Shown here: piece by piece, positions 6,901-62,440 of the stretch | Layout: each line of letters begins with the position of its first letter | Position numbering within the stretch: position 1 is the stretch's first letter | Source of the DNA: Levilactobacillus brevis | GTDB lineage: Bacteria > Bacillota > Bacilli > Lactobacillales > Lactobacillaceae | Length of the DNA: 64,000 bases | Assembly (NCBI GenBank): GCA_021383565.1 | Contig: CP079699.1 | Coordinates: 992,001-1,056,000 of the forward strand | Direction of reading: 5' to 3' | Notes under the pieces: generated by a model | Told to the model about the DNA's origin: nothing | The model's database searches: none | The model's input: only the letters and a program-made list of their open reading frames with translations | Position numbers and translations under genes: made by a program

Positions 6901-6930
6901 GAACAAAAATACGAAAGTTTGCGAACACGC

Positions 6931-7285
6931 CCCAGTCCTCAGCTGACAGGATTTACCGCCCGCCATTAAATGCGTTATCAACACCACCTACGGCTGTCAG
7001 AGATTCCGGTTACGATGGATGAAAGCCACTGAGTACGCGGCGACATCGCTGGTGTGGCAACGTTCAGCCAGTTTAATTGGACATCCCTCAGGTAGCCGTG
7101 AGTGAGCTAAATTTGGTCTCAGCCGTGGGATTTTCCAAGTGTTTTACTTGGAAAACGGCGTCTTTGAGACGCGGGCCGACGGCTCAAAGCGAGGGACAAG
7201 ACCGCCTTTTGGCTTTTCCCGTCCTACCCACCGCGATCCAGACCAACTTTGGCGAACGGTAAGGCGGCCAGTACGTGACTGGCGT
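6931..7285 (-). ncRNA. Structured repeat RNA, copy A (internally deleted)
   Basis: No gene is visible in this gap. Read on the minus strand, it starts with GCCTTACCG (complement of 7258-7266) and continues through the same fold as the copy at 36185. The closing stem joins 7240-7250 and 7109-7119 with one mismatch. Hairpins join 7213-7220/7193-7200, 7183-7189/7162-7168 and 7147-7155/7131-7139. The 3' domain follows but lacks about 150 nt present in the 36-kb copy, probably lost between short TCCGG repeats. Strand is inferred from the promoter-like sequence of the 36-kb copy. Confidence 0.65.
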
Positions 7286-7336
7286 ATTAGAACAGTAAGA
7301 AAATTCTCGGTGACCCTTGGCCAAACCAATCAAATC

Positions 7337-10848: not shown

Positions 10849-11819
10849 GCACGTGAAAATTCCGGGAAGCTAAACGCAACGTGACCTTAGAGAATTCTTC
10901 AAACTTACTTTTACTGCCAGAAACGCCGTGCCCCGGCGTATTCGGGGGCAAAGGCGGATTTGGCCATACTGGATTCTTCGACCTGACCACCCGGCTTAGG
11001 CGCGTGGAGAATGCGACCGGCCCCCGCGTAGAGTCCCACGTGGTGAACGTCACCCGTGCCGTGTTTGGTGGCAAAGAAGACCAGATCACCCGCGGTTAAC
11101 TCTTCCGGCGCCACCGGGAAGCCGTTGGCAAATTGGTCCTGCGTATCCCGTGGTACCGGAATGCCCAGTGCCCGGTGCAAAGCATAGACGAAGCCCGAAC
11201 AGTCGAAACCGGCTGGTGTCAGGCCACCCCAGAGGTACGGCGTGTCAATGAATTGCCGCCCCAGAGCCAGAATGCGATCACCATCATCCACGCCACTCAC
11301 GCCTAATTTTGCCGCTGCGGCTGGAATCTGACCAGCACCTAGAGGCGTCACCACCTGAATCCAGTCGCTGTCTTGACTGGTGGTAGTCAGGATCGCGCCC
11401 ATGGGTAGATCCAAAACGGGCTGTTGGTTGGCGTCCACGAGGGTGGTCGTCGGCTGAACCAGCCGCACCGTCGTTGTGGGATATTCCAACTCAGCATCGC
11501 TAGTGGTCAATTGACTCAGCGGGACCCAACCGGGATAACCGCGGCGCTCTGCCCGATTGGCCTGACGCGTCACGAAAACATGAGCCCAATCCCCCTCTTG
11601 TCGATCCAAGACGACCCGATCGTTGAATAACGCTTCGGTGACAATGCTTTGATTATCCGCTAATCGTTGCCGATCGGCCGGCTGTAAAGCAGCCGCCCAA
11701 GCCGTCAAGTTGCCATCCTTCAAGTACGTTTGATCAGTCTTTGTGGCTTGTTATGATCCCTTTGGGGTTGTCAAATGAAATAATATAATTCATCTGACAA
11801 TCAACGGAGGGAATATGAC

Positions 11820-12497
11820 ATGTCGAAGATCAAGTATAGTGCCGTGGAGAAGCTGGAGTTGATTAATGAGTTTGAAGCATCAGGTCAAACTAATATTGGC
11901 TTTGCCAGAGAACATGGTTTGGCAGACAAGGAGGCGGTCATTCGGTGGCGGGCGTTGTACAAACGAGATGGCTTTGATGGGCTTAAAGAATCTAAAGGTT
12001 GTCGCAGATACAGTGAGGTCTTTAAGCTAAGAGTCGTGTATGCTTTTTTGAACGGCGAAGGTTCACAACGAGAAGTAGCAATGAAGTATGGTTTGCGCTC
12101 AGCTACGCAGGTAAATTACTGGGTTTCCAGGTATAATAGGGACAAAACTGTGACGGCAACCCCGTCTAGAAAGCAGGTCCCAACGATGAGCCGAAAAACT
12201 ACTCTGGCAGAGCGTATTGAAGTGGTTGAGTACATTACCAAGCAGAACCACTCATATAACGAAGCAGCTGAACATTACAGCGTCTCCTACCAACAAGCCC
12301 GTTCGTGGGTGCTTAGAGCTAAGAAAGGTGGTTACAACGCCTTAGAGGATCGACGCGGACACCGTAAGCCACAACGAGAATTAACCGACTTAGATAAGGC
12401 CAATTTGCGGATTAAGCAACTAGAAGGTCAAGTCGCCGACATGGAATTACTGAAAGAATTCGTAAAAAAATTTCAAGAAATTCAGCACAAGGGGTGA
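11820..12497 (+). CDS. IS3 transposase, OrfA
   Basis: 225 residues with two helix-turn-helix regions and a C-terminal leucine-zipper-like helix, as in IS150-group OrfA. Near its end a run of seven A (in GTAAAAAAATTTC, about 12464-12470) can cause the -1 frameshift that fuses OrfA with OrfB; OrfB lies in the -1 frame. It binds the IS ends. Confidence 0.93.
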   Translation: MSKIKYSAVEKLELINEFEASGQTNIGFAREHGLADKEAVIRWRALYKRDGFDGLKESKGCRRYSEVFKLRVVYAFLNGEGSQREVAMKYGLRSATQVNYWVSRYNRDKTVTATPSRKQVPTMSRKTTLAERIEVVEYITKQNHSYNEAAEHYSVSYQQARSWVLRAKKGGYNALEDRRGHRKPQRELTDLDKANLRIKQLEGQVADMELLKEFVKKFQEIQHKG

Positions 12498-13387
12498 ATC
12501 AGCAACATCGACTGGCATATCAGGCAATCAGTGAGGTCAGTCAAGGAAAGCGAGGCGCCATTAAGACATTATTGACGCATATCGGAGTTAGTCGGCAAGC
12601 TTATAACAAGTCTTTTCATCGGCAAGAAACGCCGTGGGAGACTCAAGAGCGGCTTCTAGAAAAGCGAATCACTTATTGGTTCAATCAACATCATCAAGCA
12701 ATCGGAGCTGGCAAGATCTTGTCCAATCTACAGCATGATGAACAGGTGACGTTTAAGGTAACAATCAAGCGTGTTAAACGAATTATGCGTAACTTGAATA
12801 TCAAGTGTCAGATTCGGGTTAAGAAGCGCCAACGTATCAAGGAACAGGAACAATACATTCAGGACAATGTTTTGAATCGTAACTTTAAAGTCGCCGGTCC
12901 CAACCAGGTTTGGCTTGCGGATTCGACTGAGTTGTCTTACGGACCAAAGGGTCAATTCAAAATCCGACTGAGTGGTGTTTTAGATCTATGCGGCCGGAGA
13001 CTGATCGCCTCATTTTTGAGCACTACAGAAACAGCTGTGGCAGAGATCCAGGTTTTTAAACAGGCTTTTGAACAGGCTGGCGATGTACACCCACTGATCC
13101 ATACGGACCGTGGAGCTGCTTACACCGCTAAAGCTTTCAATAACTTTCTGTCAGAACATAAAGTGATGCGCAGTATGTCCCGACCAGGAACACCTTACGA
13201 CAACGCGCCAATGGAGCGTTGGTGGAATGAATTTAAAGCGCATTGGATGGAACGTCATCCAATGCCAAAAACGTATCGAGAGTTTGTGGAGCTGGTAAAC
13301 GAAGGCATCCACTACTTTAATTACTTGGATCGTTCCCCAGAAAGAAACGGCCTCACCCCAGTAGAATACTGGAATGAAGCCGCTTAG
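12494..13387 (+). CDS. IS3 transposase, OrfB (catalytic)
   Basis: 297 residues with the DDE integrase core: Asp in LADSTELSYG, Asp in LIHTDRGAAYTA and Glu in NAPMERWWNEFKAHW. An N-terminal HTH_21-type region is present. It starts at GTG overlapping the OrfA stop (GTGA), but the active enzyme is expected to be the OrfAB frameshift product. Confidence 0.94.
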   Translation: MNQQHRLAYQAISEVSQGKRGAIKTLLTHIGVSRQAYNKSFHRQETPWETQERLLEKRITYWFNQHHQAIGAGKILSNLQHDEQVTFKVTIKRVKRIMRNLNIKCQIRVKKRQRIKEQEQYIQDNVLNRNFKVAGPNQVWLADSTELSYGPKGQFKIRLSGVLDLCGRRLIASFLSTTETAVAEIQVFKQAFEQAGDVHPLIHTDRGAAYTAKAFNNFLSEHKVMRSMSRPGTPYDNAPMERWWNEFKAHWMERHPMPKTYREFVELVNEGIHYFNYLDRSPERNGLTPVEYWNEAA

Positions 13388-13557
13388 AGTAAATATCCAT
13401 TTTATATTATTTCGAATGACAACTTGACAGGGACTAGTACAGCTGCCGTCGGTGCGGACCACACTAATGCCGTGGGAACCTTAATCCGTCGAATCTCCAT
13501 TAAAACCGCCTCCAGTTTCTTTACCCCAATCTTACCAATAATTCGGTCAACTTACTA

Positions 13558-14408
13558 GGGCCTGTTCTCAAACTATTTCAATAGAATCATGATGGCGCAG
13601 ATGTATATGGTGGACAAGAAGCTGGTAGCTAGCTTATCGTAGCGTGTTGCGAAGCGTCTAAAGTTCTTCATTTGATTAAAAAAGTCTTCAATCAGGTGAC
13701 GTTCACAGTAGGTGAAATAATCACAGTCCCAAGGATCTTTGGCATTCTCTTTTGGCGGAATGGTATAGGTCCCATGGGCTGATGTAATTTGGTCTCTTAG
13801 CTTTTCGGCACCATATGCTTTATCCGCAATCACGTTTACGTTAGTCAAATCAACAGTTTCAAGTAGTTCAGGTGCCGCAATACTATCGTGTACCTGACCA
13901 CCTGAAAGCAAGAATTTTAGTGGGTTGCCCAGTCCATCTACTAACGCATGAACCTTGGTGGTAAGGCCACCTCGGCTTCGTCCTATGAATTGGTTGAACT
14001 CTGCATTGACTGCGTTTTTTTAGCACCGGTAGCTTTTTGATGAACCCGAATACTGGTTGAATCTAAGCTGATGTTCTCCATGTCTGGATCTTGAGAAAGT
14101 TCTTCAAACATTTTTAGAAACAGACCGGAATTTGACCAACGTTGAAATCGGCTGTAAATTGCCTTCCAGTGACCGTAGCGCTCGGGAACGTCACGCCATG
14201 CCGCTCCGCTTCGCATCAGCCAGAGAATACCATTGAAAGCCGTTCGGTTATCAATGGTGGCTGGTCGACCGGTACGATAGGCTGGAAACATTGGTTCAAT
14301 GCGGTTCCACTGTTCGTCAGTTAGTTCATAGCGCTTTGGTATAGTCATGATGTACTCCAATCCGTTTTTGATGGAGTATACCAGAAATCAATGTTTAGGA
14401 ACAGACCC
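13558..14408 (-). mobile_element. IS5-family (IS427-like) insertion sequence, copy 1
   Basis: An 851-bp element with ends GGGCCTGTTCTCAAAC and GGGTCTGTTCCTAAAC (complement), flanked by a TA duplication (13556-13557, 14409-14410). It appears identical to the second copy 943 bp away in the same orientation. Confidence 0.93.
13573..14360 (-). CDS. IS5-family transposase, two frames joined by -1 frameshift (copy 1)
   Basis: The first frame (14360-13983) holds the N-terminal DUF4096-like region and the first catalytic Asp (SLDSTSIRVHQ). The second (to 13573) holds Asp in NVIADKAYG and Glu in LIEDFFNQMKNFRR. A run of seven A on the coding strand (complement of 14015-14021) allows a -1 slip. After it the second frame reads NAVNAEFNQFIGRSRGG without a stop, giving a full DDE protein. 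This is the normal expression mode of the group, not decay. Confidence 0.9.
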
Positions 14409-14410
14409 TA

Positions 14411-14498
14411 AAGGAAGGTGAATTTTTTCTTTTTCGCTAAGTTAGTTCAATGTCCATTAGGGTATACCCTATTGGCCTTTTTTATTTCTGTGCTATAC
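14411..14498. other. 88-bp host segment between the two IS5 copies
   Basis: Former upstream region of the split NlpC/P60 gene. It contains the perfect palindrome TAGGGTATACCCTA (14458-14471), a possible operator, and AT-rich sequence. No gene. Confidence 0.5.
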
Positions 14499-14500
14499 TA

Positions 14501-15351
14501 GGGCCTGTTCTCAAACTATTTCAATAGAATCATGATGGCGCAGATGTATATGGTGGACAAGAAGCTGGTAGCTAGCTTATCGTAGCGTGTTGCGAAGCGT
14601 CTAAAGTTCTTCATTTGATTAAAAAAGTCTTCAATCAGGTGACGTTCACAGTAGGTGAAATAATCACAGTCCCAAGGATCTTTGGCATTCTCTTTTGGCG
14701 GAATGGTATAGGTCCCATGGGCTGATGTAATTTGGTCTCTTAGCTTTTCGGCACCATATGCTTTATCCGCAATCACGTTTACGTTAGTCAAATCAACAGT
14801 TTCAAGTAGTTCAGGTGCCGCAATACTATCGTGTACCTGACCACCTGAAAGCAAGAATTTTAGTGGGTTGCCCAGTCCATCTACTAACGCATGAACCTTG
14901 GTGGTAAGGCCACCTCGGCTTCGTCCTATGAATTGGTTGAACTCTGCATTGACTGCGTTTTTTTAGCACCGGTAGCTTTTTGATGAACCCGAATACTGGT
15001 TGAATCTAAGCTGATGTTCTCCATGTCTGGATCTTGAGAAAGTTCTTCAAACATTTTTAGAAACAGACCGGAATTTGACCAACGTTGAAATCGGCTGTAA
15101 ATTGCCTTCCAGTGACCGTAGCGCTCGGGAACGTCACGCCATGCCGCTCCGCTTCGCATCAGCCAGAGAATACCATTGAAAGCCGTTCGGTTATCAATGG
15201 TGGCTGGTCGACCGGTACGATAGGCTGGAAACATTGGTTCAATGCGGTTCCACTGTTCGTCAGTTAGTTCATAGCGCTTTGGTATAGTCATGATGTACTC
15301 CAATCCGTTTTTGATGGAGTATACCAGAAATCAATGTTTAGGAACAGACCC
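14501..15351 (-). mobile_element. IS5-family (IS427-like) insertion sequence, copy 2
   Basis: Same 851 bp, ends and orientation as copy 1, with its own TA duplication (14499-14500, 15352-15353). The different flanks mean two independent insertions. Confidence 0.93.
14516..15303 (-). CDS. IS5-family transposase, two frames joined by -1 frameshift (copy 2)
   Basis: Appears identical to copy 1: first frame 15303-14926, second to 14516, joined by slippage on A7 at the complement of 14958-14964. All three acidic catalytic residues are present in the fused product. Confidence 0.9.
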
Positions 15352-30911: not shown

Positions 30912-31040
30912 GGCAAAAACACCTCAGTTCCCAGCTGACGAGGCTTATCGCCATTAAACTAGTCATCACCCCCTGCGGCTGCCAGAGATTCCAGCACTGT
31001 GGGGACCACCTGCGGCCTGAGAAGCGGTCTTCTGGCTTGC
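30912..31040 (-). ncRNA. Structured repeat RNA, fragment B (3' domain only)
   Basis: Read on the minus strand it matches the last part of the 36-kb copy, including GGAATCTCTGGCAGCC (one difference) and GATGACTAGTTTAATGG. The stem that is GGACCGC/GCGGTCC in the 36-kb copy is GACCGC/GTGGTC here, still paired. It ends in CCTC...GAGG followed by TGTTTTTG, which looks like a terminator. The 5' core with the closing stem is missing. Confidence 0.55.
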
Positions 31041-31141
31041 AACCTTTAGTAGGTCACTAAAAAACTGCGCCCACCACAATCGGGCTCTTTGTCAACTGTT
31101 GTTGGTAATCGGCTGTCTGAGGTTGCCTAATCGTATTATGA

Positions 31142-32401
31142 TTAGGCAGCCTTTTTAATTCCGAATACTAGATGAATCCTTAATCTAAAGCTACTAAAAC
31201 AACCGAATCCGTAGCTGACTCGCTTGATTACTTTGATTTTATTATTGATACCTTCCATTGGTCCATTAGAATAATTGTATTTTAGCGCATTGTACACAGA
31301 TTCTTGGTGTTCTCTCAACGTATTTAACGGTGTTTCAAGCTCTTCGGAGTAATCATTCTTCTTGTCTAGAATGGTTACTAGTTTGGACGTGTGATGATAC
31401 TTGACGGCTCGCCGAACGGTCTGTAAAAGCTCATACGCTTGGCGTAATCCATCATTGAAGCTGAGAATGTAATCGACCGTACTATTCTCAGTATTAATTC
31501 CTGAGAGATGAGTGAAATTATGATAGACGTTGAAGTTCAGCTTTTCGTTAGGTTTTAAGAGTAGTTTCCAGTATCGTTTTAAGATCTTATGTTTGATATT
31601 TGAATTGGCATAGGACTTCATTATACGAACTCTCACACGATTGAAACCACGCATTATAGAACTCACGATGTGGAACCTATCGGTTACCACAATCGCGTTT
31701 GGAAAAACGGTTTCTGTCAATTGCGGATACGTGTAATTCATATCTGTCACAATGATTTTCACGCCTTCTCGCGCAGCCTTAGTATATCGATTGAAGTATT
31801 TTTCGAGATCATACAGGGTTCGTGATTCAAGGATATCGATAAATTCGTTTCGCATACCGTCCATAAAGACAAAGCTCATTGCACCTTTGGCATCTTTGGT
31901 AGACTTGACTTCATCCATATTAATAACTGCTGGCAACCAGCTGTAATTTGTCTTAATATCCGGTTGGTAGCTACGCATGATTCGTAAAACACTCGTACTC
32001 GAAATGTTTAATTCGTTTGCGATATGTCGCATTGAAACCGTCTCACTGAGCTTTACTAAACACGAGATCCGGCTGACGTTAGAGATGGTGTGGTTTCGCT
32101 GAACCAACGACGTTTCTGCCAGAAAGTATTGATGGCATTGCTTACACTTGAAATTACGTTTTTTAAGGTGAAGTTTAACGTCTCGTTCAACAGCTTGTGG
32201 GAGTTTAACCGTGGTCCAACGCCAACCGTATTTGATAATGCTCTTCTGGTTCAAAACGCCACATTTAGGACAAGCTTTTGGACGGTAGTCTAAAAGTGCC
32301 TGTACCTTGAGTGGTCCCTTTACTTCTAAGGGATTCATTATTTTCAGTTTTTTGATATTAGGGTCTTTTATCCCCAGAATAATTTTAGTATCATTGGACA
32401 T
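31142..32401 (-). CDS. ISL3-family transposase
   Basis: 419 residues. The N-terminal zinc ribbon (CPKCG and CKQCHQYF) is followed by an HTH and the DDE domain (Asp in NMDEVKS, Asp in IVTDMNYTYPQ, C-terminal Glu in NGPMEGINNKIK). Intact. The IS30 insertion about 80 bp upstream of its start separates it from the right IS end and possibly from its own promoter. Confidence 0.94.
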   Translation of the reverse strand: MSNDTKIILGIKDPNIKKLKIMNPLEVKGPLKVQALLDYRPKACPKCGVLNQKSIIKYGWRWTTVKLPQAVERDVKLHLKKRNFKCKQCHQYFLAETSLVQRNHTISNVSRISCLVKLSETVSMRHIANELNISSTSVLRIMRSYQPDIKTNYSWLPAVINMDEVKSTKDAKGAMSFVFMDGMRNEFIDILESRTLYDLEKYFNRYTKAAREGVKIIVTDMNYTYPQLTETVFPNAIVVTDRFHIVSSIMRGFNRVRVRIMKSYANSNIKHKILKRYWKLLLKPNEKLNFNVYHNFTHLSGINTENSTVDYILSFNDGLRQAYELLQTVRRAVKYHHTSKLVTILDKKNDYSEELETPLNTLREHQESVYNALKYNYSNGPMEGINNKIKVIKRVSYGFGCFSSFRLRIHLVFGIKKAA

Positions 32402-35999: not shown

Positions 36000-36184
36000 T
36001 TTTTTGTCGCGGCCACTGGGACTCGTTCAAAGTCCCGGAAGCCACAGTGTTCTAACCTCGCTAGTAACTTTGGGCTGAGTAGGCTGCTCAGTCTCAGCCC
36101 GGGTTCCCTTTAGTTCACTGAAGGTTGAAAGCTAGAAAACAGCTAGCATCCGTAGTGTGACAAGGATAACGACTATTATAATAT
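36000..36184. other. Hairpin-rich gap and promoter-like site before repeat RNA copy C
   Basis: No gene. Two hairpins stand out: GGGACT/AGTCCC (near 36017-36035) and GGGCTGAG/CTCAGCCC (36072-36100). On the plus strand GTGACA (36157-36162) and TAATAT (36179-36184, or overlapping TATAAT 36177-36182) with 16-nt spacing could start transcription of the repeat RNA. The mtnN promoter must also lie here on the minus strand but is not obvious. Confidence 0.45.
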
Positions 36185-36672
36185 GCTAGTCGCATACTGG
36201 CCGCCTTACCGTTCGCCAAATTTGGTCTGGATCGCGGTGGGCAGGACGGGCCAAGCCAAAAGGCGGTCTTGTCCCTCGCTTTAAGCCGTCAGCCCGCGTC
36301 TCAAAGACGCCATTTTACAAGATAGAACACTTGGAAAATCCCACGGCTGAGACCAAATTTGACTCACTCACGGCTACTTGAAGTGTATCCAATTAAATCG
36401 GCCGAACGTGGTCACGCCAGCGATGTCGCCACACGTTCAGTGGCTTTCAATCATCGTAACCGGAGGCAGCCGGAGATGGAGGTAGCCGTGACAGCGGTGT
36501 TAGCTGACGTCTTGAGTCAGCTTACAGCGCGGGACGTGTTTGGAGACTGGCGACTTTCGCTAGGCTTAAAACCGAGCCGGAGGACCGCTCCACAGGCCGC
36601 AGGCGGTCCCCCGCCGGAATCTCTGGCAGCCACAGGTGGCGTTGATGACTAGTTTAATGGTGATTTGTTTGT
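36185..36672 (+). ncRNA. Structured repeat RNA, copy C (most complete)
   Basis: Order from 5': GCCAGT-type hairpin, GCCTTACCG, closing-stem strand CAAATTTGGTCT (36217-36228), GTGGG, three hairpins (36248-36255/36268-36275; 36279-36285/36300-36306; 36313-36321/36330-36338), CCCACGGCTGAG, closing-stem strand AGACCAAATTTG (36350-36361), TCACGGCT. Then a 3' domain of about 290 nt with stem GGACCGC/GCGGTCC (36582-36588/36603-36609). A 97-codon frame inside it has no ribosome site and is not kept in other copies. Function unknown. Confidence 0.7.
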
Positions 36673-36689
36673 AAACTTTCAACCTTTAG

Positions 36690-36995
36690 TTAATTCATAA
36701 AGAACAGAATCAAGTAAACAATAATAATTAAGGCGACTAACCAAAAAATCGCCCAATTGAGGCGGTGGCCCAGTCGCTTTTGTTTCATCTCGGTTGGGCT
36801 GACACGTTGATCCATGGGTGGTTCTTCGGTCGGTTCATTGCCCTTGGGATTGCCGTGCTTGCGCGCATACTCCTTCTCAACTTGAACCCGTTTACGGTCG
36901 CGTTCCTGAAAGTCCTTTTCGGCCTGTTCCTGCTCGCGGCGGTAATCGGCTCTCGTCTTGGGCGGTTCGTTGTGATCTTGCCAATCATCGTTCAT
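36690..36995 (-). CDS. Small tail-anchored membrane protein of unknown function
   Basis: 101 residues: a charged, Glu/Arg/Lys-rich helical N-terminal 70 residues and one C-terminal membrane helix (WAIFWLVALIIIVYLILFF), so the bulk faces the cytoplasm. The ATG at 36995 has AGGTG 6 nt upstream; a GTG at 37004 is also possible. Last gene after csp and nudF, almost touching nudF. Confidence 0.75.
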   Translation of the reverse strand: MNDDWQDHNEPPKTRADYRREQEQAEKDFQERDRKRVQVEKEYARKHGNPKGNEPTEEPPMDQRVSPTEMKQKRLGHRLNWAIFWLVALIIIVYLILFFMN

Positions 36996-38051: not shown

Positions 38052-40865
38052 TTACTTTTCGTCGAACCCTTCCGTTGCCGTTTCGGGGAAGTTTTCCCGA
38101 ACGATAGCGGCACAACGGGCACAGAAGTGTGGATAGTCAGCATCGCTACCAACATCTTCCTTGGTCAACCGGCAACGATCACAAACCTCACCGGCAGCGG
38201 CCGTGACCTTAACCGCAACGTGGTCAAAGGTCAACGCATCGGCTGGTGCTTGATCCAACGCGGCGAAGTCCAGTCCAGAAACCAACAGGATTTGTTGAAC
38301 GTTGATGTTCAGCTTATCCAGCAGCGTCTTGGTCTGATCGTCGATGTACAAGTCGAGGTGGGCTTCAGCGGCCTTCCCGATCAACTTGGCATCCCGAGCT
38401 TCTTCCAACGCCTTTAAGACGTGACTCCGCAGCTTCATGAAGTGGTCCCAAGCGGAACTTTCACCGTCGTCGGCTACTTCATTGGCATCGTCCATGTCCA
38501 AGACCTTAGGCATTTCAGCCAATTGAACGAAGCCTTCGGGTTCCTTCAAGAAGCCCCAGAGTTCTTCGGCCGTGTGTGGCAGGATTGGCGTGATCAGCTT
38601 GGTCAGGTTAACGGCAATCTGGTAGAAGACCGTTTGCATGGAGCGGCGTGCCTTACTGTCAGCGGCATCGATGTACAGGATGTCCTTGGCAAAGTCCAGA
38701 TAGAAGGCAGATAAGTCCGTAACGACGAAGTTAATTAATTCCTTGTAAATGTTCAAGAAATCAAAGTTATCGTAGTGGGCTTCCACGCTCTTGGTAAACG
38801 CATTGAGTTTGTACAGCATGTGCCGGTCAACCGACGTCAACTGGTCAACGGCCACGGCATCGGTCTTCGGATCGAAGTCACTGGTGTTCGCCAACAGGTA
38901 ACGCATGGTGTTCCGCAACTTTTTGTAGCTGTCGGAAATCTTCACGAAGGATTCAGTTGAGACCCGCACATCGGCGGAAGAATCAACGGACGTGACCCAG
39001 AGACGGACGATGTCGGCCCCCATCTTCTTAATGATTTCGTCAGGTGCAATCGTATTTCCGATGGACTTGGACATCTTGTGACCGTCTTTATCCAGCGTAA
39101 ATCCTTGGGAGACCACCTGCTTATATGGGGCCTTCCCCGTTGCCACAACACTCGTGATTAAACTAGAGTTGAACCAGCCCCGGTATTGGTCGGAACCTTC
39201 CAGATAAAGGTCGGCTGGGAAGTCCAGGTAATCACGTTCGGCCAGAACACCCTGATGAGACGAACCGGAGTCGAACCAAACATCCATGATGTCGTTTTCC
39301 TTCGTGAATTCGCCATTCGGTGAGTGTTCACTCGTGAAACCGTCTGGCAAGAGATCCTTGGCTTCGCGTTTGAACCAGATGTTAGACCCGTACTTGCCGA
39401 AGAGATCGGCCACGTGGTTCACCGTTTCCGGCGTGATGATGGCTTCTCCATCTTCACCGTAGAAGATAGGGAGCGGCACACCCCAGACCCGTTGCCGGGA
39501 GATAACCCAATCGCCACGGTCCTTGATCATGTTGGCCAAACGACGCTTACCCCAATCAGGTTGGAACTTCACGTCCGTTAGGCTGTCCAAGATTTCATCA
39601 CGAATCTTGTCGACGGAAGCGAACCACTGCGGCGTTGCCCGGAAGATAACGGGCTTCTTGGTCCGCCAGTCAAAGGGGTAACTGTGTTCGTAAGGCATGT
39701 ATTTCAGTAAGGCGTTAGCGGCCTTTAACTTGTCCAAAGCGATCTGGTTGGCATCGTCATAGAAGACGCCGTCAAAGTCAGGACCGGCTTCAGCTGTCAT
39801 GTACCCCTGATCGTTCACGGGAACTAGGACTGGCAAGTTGTAAAGCTTACCCACGTTAAAGTCATCTTCCCCTAAGCCTGGTGCAGTATGAACCAAACCA
39901 GTCCCAGAGTCGGTGGTCACGAAGTCGCCTAACATCACAACCAGCTTCCGGTCCGCGATGAATGGATGTTGGGCAATGATGTTGTCCATGTCTTGACCCA
40001 TCACGGTCTTCAAGACCTTAACGTCTTCCCAACCAAAACGTTCAGCATTTTCTGCAACCAAGTCACTAGCCAAGACAAACTTCCGGTCTTCGCCAGCAGG
40101 TTGAACAACGGCATATTCGATGCCGGCGTCGATGGTGATCCCTTCGGAACCCGGGATGGTCCATGGCGTCGTGGTCCACACTACCAGGTAGGTGTCGTCA
40201 TCTAAGACGCCCTTCCCGTCAATAACCTTTTCGCCGTAAAAGGCGGATGGTGAGGTTACATCGTGGTATTCCACTTCGGCTTCGGCCATAGCGGATTCGG
40301 AAGACCATGACCAGTACACGGGACGCTTCCCCTTGTAGATCAGGCCACGCTTGGCAAATTCACCAAAAACGCGCACTTCGGCGGCTTCGAATTCGGGCTT
40401 CAGGGTCAAGTAAGGATTGTCCCATTCGGCGGAAACACCTAGCCGCTTGAACCCATCGCGTTGTAAGTTAACTTGCTTCAACGCGTATTCGCGACACAGG
40501 TCACGGAATTCAGCGGTCGACATCTTCTTCCGGTCGTAGCCGGCCTTGGTCAGTTGTTGTTCGATAGGCAAACCGTGAGTATCCCAACCAGGAACGTAAG
40601 GTGCCCGGTAGCCACTCATGGACTTGTAACGCACGATAATATCCTTGGAAATCTTGTTCAACGCATGACCCATGTGGATGGGACCATTCGCGTATGGTGG
40701 CCCATCATGCAAAATAAACGTTGGCTTCCCCTCGTTTAATTTTTGGCGGGCTTCGTAAATCTTGTTTTCAGCCCAGACTTTTTGCCGTTCGACTTCTTTA
40801 ACTGGCAAATTGCCACGCATTTTGAACTTGGTCTTACCCAGATTCAACGTGTCTTTCACTCGCAT
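38052..40865 (-). CDS. ileS: Isoleucyl-tRNA synthetase
   Basis: 937 residues, class I synthetase of the bacterial type. HMGH (in [11 protein letters not shown]) and KMSKS (in [10 protein letters not shown]) form the active site; the large CP1 editing insertion is present and the C-terminus has a zinc site (CDRCRL, CARC). AAAGGAGG precedes the ATG at 40865. Controlled by a T-box riboswitch, but the distance from T-box to gene is unusually long (about 420 nt) because a repeat element lies between. Confidence 0.97.
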
Positions 40866-40976: not shown

Positions 40977-41142
40977 CGCCTTACCGGATGGTCCGCTAGA
41001 CGCTGGAACGCCGTGGCCGCGACTTGAAGCCTCACCAAACCCGTGAGTCTCCAAGCTCGGGCTTATGCTAAGCTAGCAGATAATCACTGCCAGCTAAGCA
41101 TAACGACACGGCTGAGCATCTAGCGGACCATCCTCACGGCTA
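40977..41142 (+). ncRNA. Structured repeat RNA, copy E (divergent core) in the ileS leader
   Basis: Keeps the conserved blocks CGCCTTACCG, TGGAACGCCGTGG, ACACGGCTGAG and TCACGGCTA of the family. The closing stem is an unrelated but perfect 13-bp pair, ATGGTCCGCTAGA (40988-41000) with TCTAGCGGACCAT (41119-41131). Inside are hairpins CTCAC/GTGAG and a longer TTATGCTAAGCT/AGCTAAGCATAA pair. The 3' domain is not evident. On the plus strand it is antisense to the ileS transcript, which would also carry the complementary fold. Confidence 0.6.
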
Positions 41143-41284: not shown

Positions 41285-41490
41285 AAAAAACGACCTCGCC
41301 GCAAGGGACGAAATCGTTCGTGGTACCACCCAAATTCAGAAGACGATCTGCATCGTCTTCCCTCAACACCGTATCGGGGTGTTCCGCCGTTGCTTACTGT
41401 TAGTTCAGCCACGGGGCTTGGAGAATGATACCCACTAAACAGGCTGGATGTTAGCCTTCCACCATCGCTAACTCGCTCGTATCCTCTGTT
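41285..41490 (-). promoter_or_regulatory. T-box riboswitch (Ile) upstream of ileS
   Basis: On the minus strand: stem I starts near 41489 (AGAGGATACGAGCG) and returns at GGGTATCATTCTCC, where ATC (41427-41429) is the likely isoleucine specifier. The T-box TGGGTGGTACCACG spans about 41319-41332. A terminator AACGATTTCGTC...GGCGAGGTCGTT plus T run is at 41285-41318. Uncharged tRNA-Ile should stabilise the antiterminator and allow ileS transcription. Confidence 0.92.
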
Positions 41491-41523
41491 TTAGTCGGCG
41501 GATTTCTCTGCCATTTTTATGAT

Positions 41524-56311: not shown

Positions 56312-56735
56312 GATGCTGTCCGCCTTACCGTTCGTCAAATCTGGTCTGGATCGCTGTGGGCAGGATCGGGAAAAGCCAAAGGGCGGTCTTTTCCCTCGCT
56401 TTGAGCCGATGACCAACGTCTCAAAGTCGTCATTTTCCAAGCAGAGCGCTCGAAAAATCCCACGGCTGAGACCAAATTTGACTCACTCACGGCTGCATGA
56501 GACGTATCCAATTCAGCTAGCCGAATGTTGCCACTGCAACGATATTGCCGCGCGTTCAGTAGTTTTCAACCATCGTAACCGGAGACAGTCAGAGATGGAG
56601 GTAGCCATAACAGCAGTCTTAGCTGATGTTCTGAGTTAGCTTACAGAGTGGCCGTTGGAGGTTGACGATCTTGGTCAGACTTCAAACCGAGCCGGAGAAC
56701 CGTTTCTCAGTCCACAGACGTTCCCTCTGGCAAAC
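56312..56735 (+). ncRNA. Structured repeat RNA, copy D1
   Basis: Same orientation and fold as the 36-kb copy. Closing stem GTCAAATCTGGTCT (56334-56347) with AGACCAAATTTGAC (56469-56482), one mismatch. Hairpins GGGAAAAG/CTTTTCCC (56368-56375/56388-56395, perfect), CTTTGAG/CTCAAAG (56399-56405/56420-56426) and TTTTCCAAG/CTCGAAAAA (56433-56441/56449-56457). The 3' domain runs to about 56735, where it meets copy D2 tail to tail. The long frame over it (56310-56639) has no ribosome site and is broken in other copies. Confidence 0.65.
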
Positions 56736-56950
56736 CCGTAGCCGTGAGTGAAGCGACCTATGAGCTCAGCCGTGGGATTATCTTAGCGGCATCAGCCGGT
56801 TAGATAATGGCGACTTGGAAACGCCGATTCTGGGCGGTTCCAAGCGAGCTCCGAGACCGCTTTTCAGGCTCGGAGCGTCTGTTATGATCCCTTTGGGGTT
56901 GTCAAATGAAATAATATAATTCATCTGACAATCAACGGAGGGAATATGAC

Positions 56951-57628
56951 ATGTCGAAGATCAAGTATAGTGCCGTGGAGAAGCTGGAGTTGATTAATGA
57001 GTTTGAAGCATCAGGTCAAACTAATATTGGCTTTGCCAGAGAACATGGTTTGGCAGACAAGGAGGCGGTCATTCGGTGGCGGGCGTTGTACAAACGAGAT
57101 GGCTTTGATGGGCTTAAAGAATCTAAAGGTTGTCGCAGATACAGTGAGGTCTTTAAGCTAAGAGTCGTGTATGCTTTTTTGAACGGCGAAGGTTCACAAC
57201 GAGAAGTAGCAATGAAGTATGGTTTGCGCTCAGCTACGCAGGTAAATTACTGGGTTTCCAGGTATAATAGGGACAAAACTGTGACGGCAACCCCGTCTAG
57301 AAAGCAGGTCCCAACGATGAGCCGAAAAACTACTCTGGCAGAGCGTATTGAAGTGGTTGAGTACATTACCAAGCAGAACCACTCATATAACGAAGCAGCT
57401 GAACATTACAGCGTCTCCTACCAACAAGCCCGTTCGTGGGTGCTTAGAGCTAAGAAAGGTGGTTACAACGCCTTAGAGGATCGACGCGGACACCGTAAGC
57501 CACAACGAGAATTAACCGACTTAGATAAGGCCAATTTGCGGATTAAGCAACTAGAAGGTCAAGTCGCCGACATGGAATTACTGAAAGAATTCGTAAAAAA
57601 ATTTCAAGAAATTCAGCACAAGGGGTGA
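56951..57628 (+). CDS. IS3 transposase, OrfA (copy 2)
   Basis: Protein sequence identical to the OrfA at 11820-12497, with the same A7 slippage run before its end. Confidence 0.93.
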   Translation: MSKIKYSAVEKLELINEFEASGQTNIGFAREHGLADKEAVIRWRALYKRDGFDGLKESKGCRRYSEVFKLRVVYAFLNGEGSQREVAMKYGLRSATQVNYWVSRYNRDKTVTATPSRKQVPTMSRKTTLAERIEVVEYITKQNHSYNEAAEHYSVSYQQARSWVLRAKKGGYNALEDRRGHRKPQRELTDLDKANLRIKQLEGQVADMELLKEFVKKFQEIQHKG

Positions 57629-58518
57629 ATCAGCAACATCGACTGGCATATCAGGCAATCAGTGAGGTCAGTCAAGGAAAGCGAGGCGCCATTAAGACAT
57701 TATTGACGCATATCGGAGTTAGTCGGCAAGCTTATAACAAGTCTTTTCATCGGCAAGAAACGCCGTGGGAGACTCAAGAGCGGCTTCTAGAAAAGCGAAT
57801 CACTTATTGGTTCAATCAACATCATCAAGCAATCGGAGCTGGCAAGATCTTGTCCAATCTACAGCATGATGAACAGGTGACGTTTAAGGTAACAATCAAG
57901 CGTGTTAAACGAATTATGCGTAACTTGAATATCAAGTGTCAGATTCGGGTTAAGAAGCGCCAACGTATCAAGGAACAGGAACAATACATTCAGGACAATG
58001 TTTTGAATCGTAACTTTAAAGTCGCCGGTCCCAACCAGGTTTGGCTTGCGGATTCGACTGAGTTGTCTTACGGACCAAAGGGTCAATTCAAAATCCGACT
58101 GAGTGGTGTTTTAGATCTATGCGGCCGGAGACTGATCGCCTCATTTTTGAGCACTACAGAAACAGCTGTGGCAGAGATCCAGGTTTTTAAACAGGCTTTT
58201 GAACAGGCTGGCGATGTACACCCACTGATCCATACGGACCGTGGAGCTGCTTACACCGCTAAAGCTTTCAATAACTTTCTGTCAGAACATAAAGTGATGC
58301 GCAGTATGTCCCGACCAGGAACACCTTACGACAACGCGCCAATGGAGCGTTGGTGGAATGAATTTAAAGCGCATTGGATGGAACGTCATCCAATGCCAAA
58401 AACGTATCGAGAGTTTGTGGAGCTGGTAAACGAAGGCATCCACTACTTTAATTACTTGGATCGTTCCCCAGAAAGAAACGGCCTCACCCCAGTAGAATAC
58501 TGGAATGAAGCCGCTTAG
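57625..58518 (+). CDS. IS3 transposase, OrfB (copy 2)
   Basis: Protein sequence identical to the OrfB at 12494-13387, with the full DDE triad. Overlaps OrfA by 4 nt. Confidence 0.94.
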   Translation: MNQQHRLAYQAISEVSQGKRGAIKTLLTHIGVSRQAYNKSFHRQETPWETQERLLEKRITYWFNQHHQAIGAGKILSNLQHDEQVTFKVTIKRVKRIMRNLNIKCQIRVKKRQRIKEQEQYIQDNVLNRNFKVAGPNQVWLADSTELSYGPKGQFKIRLSGVLDLCGRRLIASFLSTTETAVAEIQVFKQAFEQAGDVHPLIHTDRGAAYTAKAFNNFLSEHKVMRSMSRPGTPYDNAPMERWWNEFKAHWMERHPMPKTYREFVELVNEGIHYFNYLDRSPERNGLTPVEYWNEAA

Positions 58519-58700
58519 AGTAAATATCCATTTTATATTATTTCGAATGACAACTTGACAGGGACTAGTACAGTCCCCCCACCGCGTTCCAGCTCATAGG
58601 TCGCAAACGGTAAGGCGAACAGTGCCATCCGCAACCGTCAGCGAGTCGAGAATGGCTGGCAACCGTAGGCAAAAAGTTACACGACACCCCCAAAACGTCA

Positions 58701-62194: not shown

Positions 62195-62266
62195 GGCCCG
62201 CTTTTCACGGTCACTCACCAATTCTGCGTGACGGTAACATGTCAGCTTACACCCAGTTGACCACAG

Positions 62267-62310
62267 AAAAAAAGCAGTTCCTCGGTGTGGGCACGGCGAG
62301 GAGCTGCTTT
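62267..62310 (-). terminator. Terminator after rlmA
   Basis: AAAGCAGCTCCTCG pairs with CGAGGAACTGCTTT (one wobble) on the minus strand, followed by TTTT. The 130 bp from here to rlmA hold no gene. Confidence 0.9.
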
Positions 62311-62440
62311 AGTGAAGTGCTACTTGTCAGCCGCTAACAGTATTCGCTGATATCGACCGCCAAACGATTTCTCATTGGTAAATATAACACCGCGCTGTCA
62401 GGTTCGCAAGTCCCTTGCCTAAGATTCTTTAACGTTTTAC

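Follow-up and report, generated by a model that had tools for sequence, protein, structure and literature searches.

The locus at positions 36185-36672 of the window, meaning the whole 64,000-nt stretch of Levilactobacillus brevis DNA analyzed here (contig CP079699.1, positions 992,001 to 1,056,000), raises the question of whether a dispersed repeat is an RNA, a mobile element, or both, and of why its fold persists. The initial annotation, made from the letters alone, had grouped this and five other places in the window into one repeat family with covarying stems and had judged a single free noncoding RNA of about 490 nt plausible for the locus. The observation of a repeat family with covarying stems was confirmed, and the interpretation was supported in part.

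A mobile element without a gene of its own

Alignment of 17 near-complete copies with their flanks placed the window element at 36118-36689, the originally drawn interval of 36185-36672 being its inside. The repeat starts with CTRAAGGTTGAAAG and closes with the reverse complement of that sequence, and near-full copies measure 556 to 639 nt, mostly 572 to 601 nt. The 14-bp 5' terminal inverted repeat (TIR), CTGAAGGTTGAAAG, lies at 36118-36131 on the plus strand and matches the right end at 13 of 14 positions; the aligned copies put the 3' TIR at 36676-36689 on the minus strand. The element is bordered by a left target-site duplication (TSD), TTAGTTCA (36110-36117), and a right one, TTAATTCA (36690-36697), which agree at 7 of 8 positions. 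With up to two mismatches allowed, the TIR pattern gave 57 + 63 matches in the own genome, compared to 19 + 20 for a reversed control pattern.

The TSDs were then assessed by comparing the 7 to 8 bases outside both ends of TIR pairs with those of shuffled partners, inner and repeated pairs having been removed. For 22 pairs from the own genome (G000) the mean match was 0.834 versus 0.488 after shuffling, and for nine pairs from Lactobacillus sp. HBUAS51381 (G022), the relative used for the empty-site comparison, it was 0.754 versus 0.413, with none of 2,000 shuffles as high in either genome. A match of at least 6/7 or 7/8 was found in 16 of the 22 and 6 of the 9 pairs, respectively. The signal was not significant in G030, which provided three copies only (339 of 2,000 shuffles). 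G022 does not have the element at the window site, its empty site reading TTAGTGCA once, and carries an element at another site that is unoccupied in the window.

MITEs have TIRs, target duplications, no gene, and many copies. The present repeat shares all of these, and insertion polymorphism, TIRs, target duplications, and the absence of an internal transposase gene together mark it as MITE-like. It differs from MITEs in that its inside, a covarying fold, rather than its ends is conserved across species and genera. No conserved frame was found in the right module. Neither did the 1.48 Mb of DNA examined (overlaps included) contain a convincing autonomous copy; for the ISL3 element adjoining one copy, no ends shared with the repeat were found. 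An origin from a plasmid or phage was likewise rejected, as blastn gave no match at an E value of 1e-5 in either collection. Judged from these sequence comparisons, the repeat is a mobile, dispersed MITE-like element of Lactobacillaceae without a gene of its own, which would have been moved by a cut-and-paste transposase acting in trans.

Two homologous modules pointing apart

The interior of the window element turned out to consist of two homologous modules, each about 170 nt long, that point away from each other, 36210-36367 on the minus strand and 36465-36632 on the plus strand, separated by a 97-nt central spacer (36368-36464) whose length coincides with the spacing peak of about 97 nt in the own genome. 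When iterated, a profile of the right half also recovered the left half, on the other strand; a single-pass profile comparison of the two halves was marginal (E = 0.11). We also used R1, a covariance model built from 24 right-type modules only. The right module of the window, itself one row of that model, scored 155.4 bits, and R1 matched the left half at full length (model positions 1-173) on the minus strand, with 40.9 bits for 36210-36367 and 51 bits for the left-type module at 56329-56486. On the plus strand of the left half there was no R1 match up to E = 1. Since the reverse complements of right-type modules also give 23 to 46 bits, the R1 score alone is weak, and the homology argument is carried by the orientation contrast and the shared motifs. 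The fold-back layout proposed earlier is real at the level of whole modules, and the single transcript gives way to two modules of the same kind on opposite sense strands.

This arrangement is general. In 80 named loci, chosen by a pattern in right-type modules, we counted 175 modules (223 hits minus 48 reverse-strand hits overlapping a better one), and among the 67 neighbors less than 1,200 nt apart, 58 were divergent, six plus-plus, three minus-minus, and none convergent. Close neighbors in the own genome were divergent in 39 of 42 cases, the others being one tandem and two convergent pairs, both more than 1,100 nt apart. The divergent spacers of the named loci ranged from 4 to 916 nt, most commonly about 97 nt. 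The partners of a pair were only 46 to 78% identical (30 pairs compared, one counted twice), which argues that each module folds on its own. Nested clusters were seen at L274:5355-6600, L199:1238-2345, and L262:1043-1816 (minus, minus, plus, plus, and similar), with minus modules on the left and plus modules on the right, as if pairs had been inserted into or had grown around older pairs.

Copies in the window

R1 modules were present at all six places that had been assigned to the family. The first, at 6905-7317, is an element in minus orientation with its right module partly missing and a left-type module at 7102-7258 (R1 match on the plus strand). The second, 30925-31049 on the minus strand, had been taken as a copy at 30912-31040; it does belong to the family, but as an internally deleted remnant in which the TIR at 31036-31049 is joined to a partial right-type module, and its R1 match (30976-31097, minus strand) reaches only 29.8 bits. 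Many copies in the own genome likewise show an internal deletion with one end retained. Next to the remnant lies an ISL3-family transposase (31142-32401), and the matching stretch is absent from G022. Besides the element at 36118-36689, the window contains a lone module at 40985-41133 (minus strand, in sense; 71 to 73 bits) between a T-box and ileS, and a divergent pair recognized by R1 at 56329-56753, formed by 56329-56486 (minus) and 56584-56753 (plus). The last place, annotated as a copy at 56738-58615, does hold a left-type module (56744-58617; profile-hit pieces at 56744-56879 and 58563-58617, R1 match at 56776-56880 on the plus strand), but the module is split by a 1,694-bp IS3-type IS at 56880-58573.

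The same 1,694-bp IS, with HTH_Tnp_1 and rve domains, is also found at 11749-13442. Its right end occurs seven times in identical form in the own genome, and five of the seven ends abut a module, always at the same point, one does not, and one is unclassified; two of the five sites share identical flanks, leaving perhaps four independent insertions. The structured repeat thus seems to be a target of this IS3-like IS. A further repetition in the window, a direct duplication at 13553-15303 with 943-bp spacing, contains two copies each of 112- and 125-amino-acid open frames.

Distribution and novelty

A blastn search with 36190-36670 returned at least 46 matches in the own genome, with 79 to 94% identity excluding self (among the best 40 of 158 candidates), and R1 gave at least 127 hits there at E values up to 0.001 (among the best 150 of 773 candidates). 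By blastn, the family was present in 26 of 35 Levilactobacillus genomes. R1 was further applied to samples at the family, order, and phylum levels with strict filters, the best seven candidates per genome being considered. In the Lactobacillaceae sample, modules were detected in at least 106 of 397 genomes and at least 10 of 40 genera, each of the ten with at least one genome below an E value of 1e-13. Named hosts include Levilactobacillus, Lactiplantibacillus herbarum, several Secundilactobacillus species, and Companilactobacillus nodensis. At least 22 of 395 genomes matched in the order-level sample, one of them outside the family with a weak score (E = 5.5e-5, 32.7 bits) attainable from reverse-strand structure alone, and in the phylum-level sample only one of 398 did, the own genome.

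The repeat had no Rfam 15 match in the window at the gathering threshold, the comparison including ROOL and GOLLD; the sole gathering-level match in the window was a 23S-methyl RNA motif (RF01065) at 62266-62366 on the minus strand. For six family loci searched up to E = 1, the lone match was to an unrelated microRNA (E = 0.032), and around the copy at 40985-41133 there was no strong match except a separate T-box. In the largely openly accessible literature searched for lactobacilli and their relatives, we found no description of such a repeat; the parts consulted of a 2008 survey of stem-loop families cover L. johnsonii as the only lactobacillus, with one mostly genic family (PMC2267715). The proposal that the family is structured, shows compensatory changes, and is undescribed was supported. 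With R1, a large class of intergenic sequence for which no Rfam 15 match was found now has a covariance model.

The fold and its strand

Each module folds as a closed stem with three hairpins. In the R1 alignment, 35 of the 54 pairs were changed on both sides, and the fraction of paired cells was 95.5%, versus 83.6% in shuffles; covariation reached a score of 0.380 versus 0.169 for shuffled alignments (none of 500 as high) and 0.057 to 0.078 for slid structures. The left type, represented by 28 modules, showed the same: 94.9% of the cells were paired versus 86.7% after shuffling (at most 88.0% in 300 shuffles), and double changes affected 31 of 59 pairs versus a mean of 12.7 in the 300 shuffles. 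The stems quoted in the initial annotation were present where inspected, and pairing across the family lay far above chance by both controls.

We then asked which strand carries the fold. Among 76 representatives less than 80% identical to one another, the sense strand had 178 G-U versus 35 A-C cells, spread over 35 versus 8 pair positions. With repeated DNA removed, the ratio on the modules' own sense strands was 89:21 for left and 106:19 for right pair members. When G-U was disallowed in folding, the counts equaled those of a strand-neutral set of pairs. In a MAFFT alignment made separately for the Levilactobacillus right type, the ratio was 184:65. For the Levilactobacillus left type, the kind present in the window and of which few modules reach the score cutoff of the 76-representative count, the signal in sense was weak (106:69; 24 versus 22 pair positions). 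Since a selected double-stranded cruciform should accumulate G-U and A-C cells alike, the approximately fivefold excess of G-U on the sense strand points, for the wider family, to a fold selected as RNA on one strand.

Selection on standing copies

Modules occupying the same site in two species were more alike than the adjoining noncoding DNA in 30 of 34 distinct comparisons, in which gaps were counted and repeated comparisons of the same DNA were removed. About 10 of the 34 have clearly matching modules, and the choice favors high module values, so the argument for selection in place rests more on the count of paired changes. That count used 26 of 33 matched pairs of copies (seven less surely matched ones being omitted) and only base pairs standard in the first sequence; the comparisons are partly dependent, as three related genomes recur. 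The change rate was 0.039 at paired and 0.110 at unpaired bases. Both sides had changed in 21 pairs, of which 19 still paired, where 2.0 double changes are expected if the sides change independently; of the single changes, 42 left the pair intact and 18 disrupted it. The copy at 40985-41133 and its same-site counterpart in G022 had none of 47 pairs broken. In the copies from G005 and G010 that were displayed, the core was intact while the ends and flanks were eroded. These comparisons show, at the level of sequence, that the fold of standing copies in different species is kept by selection, and we are highly confident that the repeat is a mobile element with a selected fold.

Genomic setting

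The modules are mostly intergenic: with short frames lying over modules set aside, 5 of 173 fell inside a crude open frame. Gaps between convergent genes made up 36 of 96 gaps with modules versus 28 of 187 without (odds ratio 3.4, Fisher p = 4e-5); this comparison uses crude gene prediction and nonindependent units, short frames over modules having been removed before counting. Terminators between gene and element were about as common (52 of 116) as in the background (89 of 168), which lends no direct support to a terminator or boundary role, and replacement of terminators by the repeat was rejected on this count. The initial annotation had also noted a promoter-like site before the copy. It is near chance, one site being found where 0.4 (SD, 0.6) was expected, and there was no enrichment of promoter signal in the spacers (7.87 versus 7.74 shuffled) or the outer flanks (7.75 versus 7.65) of module pairs. 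The promoter reading was therefore rejected.

The module at 40985-41133 lies between two recognizable features. The ileS gene, which starts at 40865, encodes class I tRNA synthetase domains with an FPG/IleRS zinc finger, and upstream of it lies a T-box leader at 41301-41517 (76 bits, below the Rfam cutoff of 93; E = 1e-16). The T-box is a separate upstream match, and the idea that the module is itself the T-box was rejected. Being in sense between the two, the module is very probably part of the ileS mRNA.

A proposed cis-acting role and its alternatives

The reading that we prefer, with a probability of roughly 0.4, is that of a mobile MITE-like repeat whose divergent RNA modules are kept by the host as cis-acting RNA elements. 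Mobility is indicated by the TIRs, the TSDs, and the site empty in G022; RNA, by covariation above the controls and the one-strand G-U signal; selection in place, by the same-site comparisons and the pairing-preserving double changes; and the setting, by the divergent layout, the enrichment between convergent genes, and the copy between T-box and ileS. As structured elements for stability, processing, or boundaries, the modules would act within leaders, 3' regions, and read-through RNA; helpful ones would be retained by the host while the transposon ends decay. The module RNA would have its role in cis at transcript ends or leaders, and that it is kept there for a host function falls somewhat short of even odds. 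Several observations weigh against this reading. The enrichment between convergent genes could merely reflect the insertion sites of least harm, promoters are not enriched in spacers or outer flanks, and terminators near the elements occur at background frequency. There is also no convincing autonomous copy in the DNA examined, the strand signal of the Levilactobacillus left type is weak, the TSDs of the three G030 copies are not significant, and two distant neighbor pairs in the own genome are convergent.

Two other readings accept the RNA or the mobility and place the function elsewhere; both appear unlikely. In the first, the modules are genes for independent, trans-acting small RNAs, transcribed outward from the spacer and merely spread by the mobile ends. 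Divergence of nearly all close neighbors, the folding of left and right modules each on its own outward sense strand, and terminator-like sites between gene end and element at a background-like frequency are all compatible with this. Against it, no promoter signal above shuffles was seen in the spacers. The spacers also vary widely in length, the commonest being tight for two divergent promoters, and by eye none was conserved in eight pairs from other genera. In the second, the RNA or a single-strand fold serves the spread of the element itself, for example if a transposase or some other mobility protein recognizes it; the TIRs and TSDs, the polymorphic insertions, and the high copy number would fit this. 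It accounts poorly for the pairing retained in same-site copies of different species, on which occasional remobilization or gene conversion could possibly bear, and for the G005 and G010 copies with an intact core, from whose decayed ends no further transposition is expected.

More doubtful is a function of the DNA, as folded single strand or cruciform, in binding a chromosome-organizing, recombination, or topoisomerase protein, like the BIMEs of Escherichia coli. The inverted pairs, the intergenic sites, and the convergent-gene enrichment would suit it, as would the weak strand signal of the Levilactobacillus left type and the quasi-palindromic nature of the modules, R1 still recognizing the reverse complements of right-type ones. 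The one-strand G-U/A-C asymmetry of the wider family is not expected of a double-strand cruciform, though single-stranded DNA of both strands, in which G-T is likewise tolerated, may be the folded form.

Very little speaks for one free RNA of about 490 nt made from a promoter before 36190. The plus strand of 36196-36665 does fold stably (-187.6 kcal/mol), and one promoter-like site lies at 36157-36184. Yet the fold of the reverse strand is just as stable (-186.4 kcal/mol), the sense of the left module is the minus strand, modules also occur singly and with variable spacers, and the promoter-like site is near chance. A small protein encoded in the 3' half is next to impossible, as the 97-amino-acid frame of the window copy (36359-36652, TTG start) is not conserved, and a coding reading was rejected. 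Of 97 right-type modules, at best 40 share an open frame, and their lengths fall into all three phases; the frame that begins at an inner start stops after 14 to 60 residues in the 11 copies read.

Relation to known repeats

In enterobacteria, the intergenic REP/BIME repeats pair palindromic units in inverted orientation and are targeted by insertion sequences. The present repeat likewise forms inverted intergenic pairs and is an apparent IS target; unlike REPs, which are 20 to 40 bp long, its modules have about 170 nt, several hairpins, and a one-strand signal. ROOL and GOLLD are large structured RNAs found in lactobacilli. Our modules are structured and occur in lactobacilli as well, but gave no Rfam match at the gathering threshold in the window or up to E = 1 in six family loci, and have a high copy number and transposon ends. 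By analogy, the nearest kind appears to be the bcr repeats (bcr1 to bcr18) of the Bacillus cereus group, which are also dispersed and intergenic, some families being MITE-like and some having conserved RNA structure (PMC3446304). They belong to another bacterial family, and paired divergent modules are not mentioned in the parts of that report consulted, the comparison being one of descriptions only (PMC3446304). Copies were found transcribed there, 84 of 165 and 62 of 155 in two strains (PMC3446304).

Implications for Lactobacillaceae

Because the two modules are oppositely oriented, one correctly folded module would result whichever strand is transcribed. It is possible, if still doubtful, that a MITE family has seeded Lactobacillaceae chromosomes with RNA modules, more than 100 of them in the L. 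brevis genome, and that host selection now retains individual copies, forming a genome-wide layer of cis-acting RNA at gene boundaries. It is equally tentative to regard the divergent pairs, with one folded module from either strand, as the bacterial equivalent of transposable elements that have been exapted. If true, a mobile repeat would have carried an RNA of complex structure into ten genera of lactic acid bacteria, with single copies kept by natural selection where they landed, and the family would offer a testable case of bacterial transposon exaptation at the RNA level.
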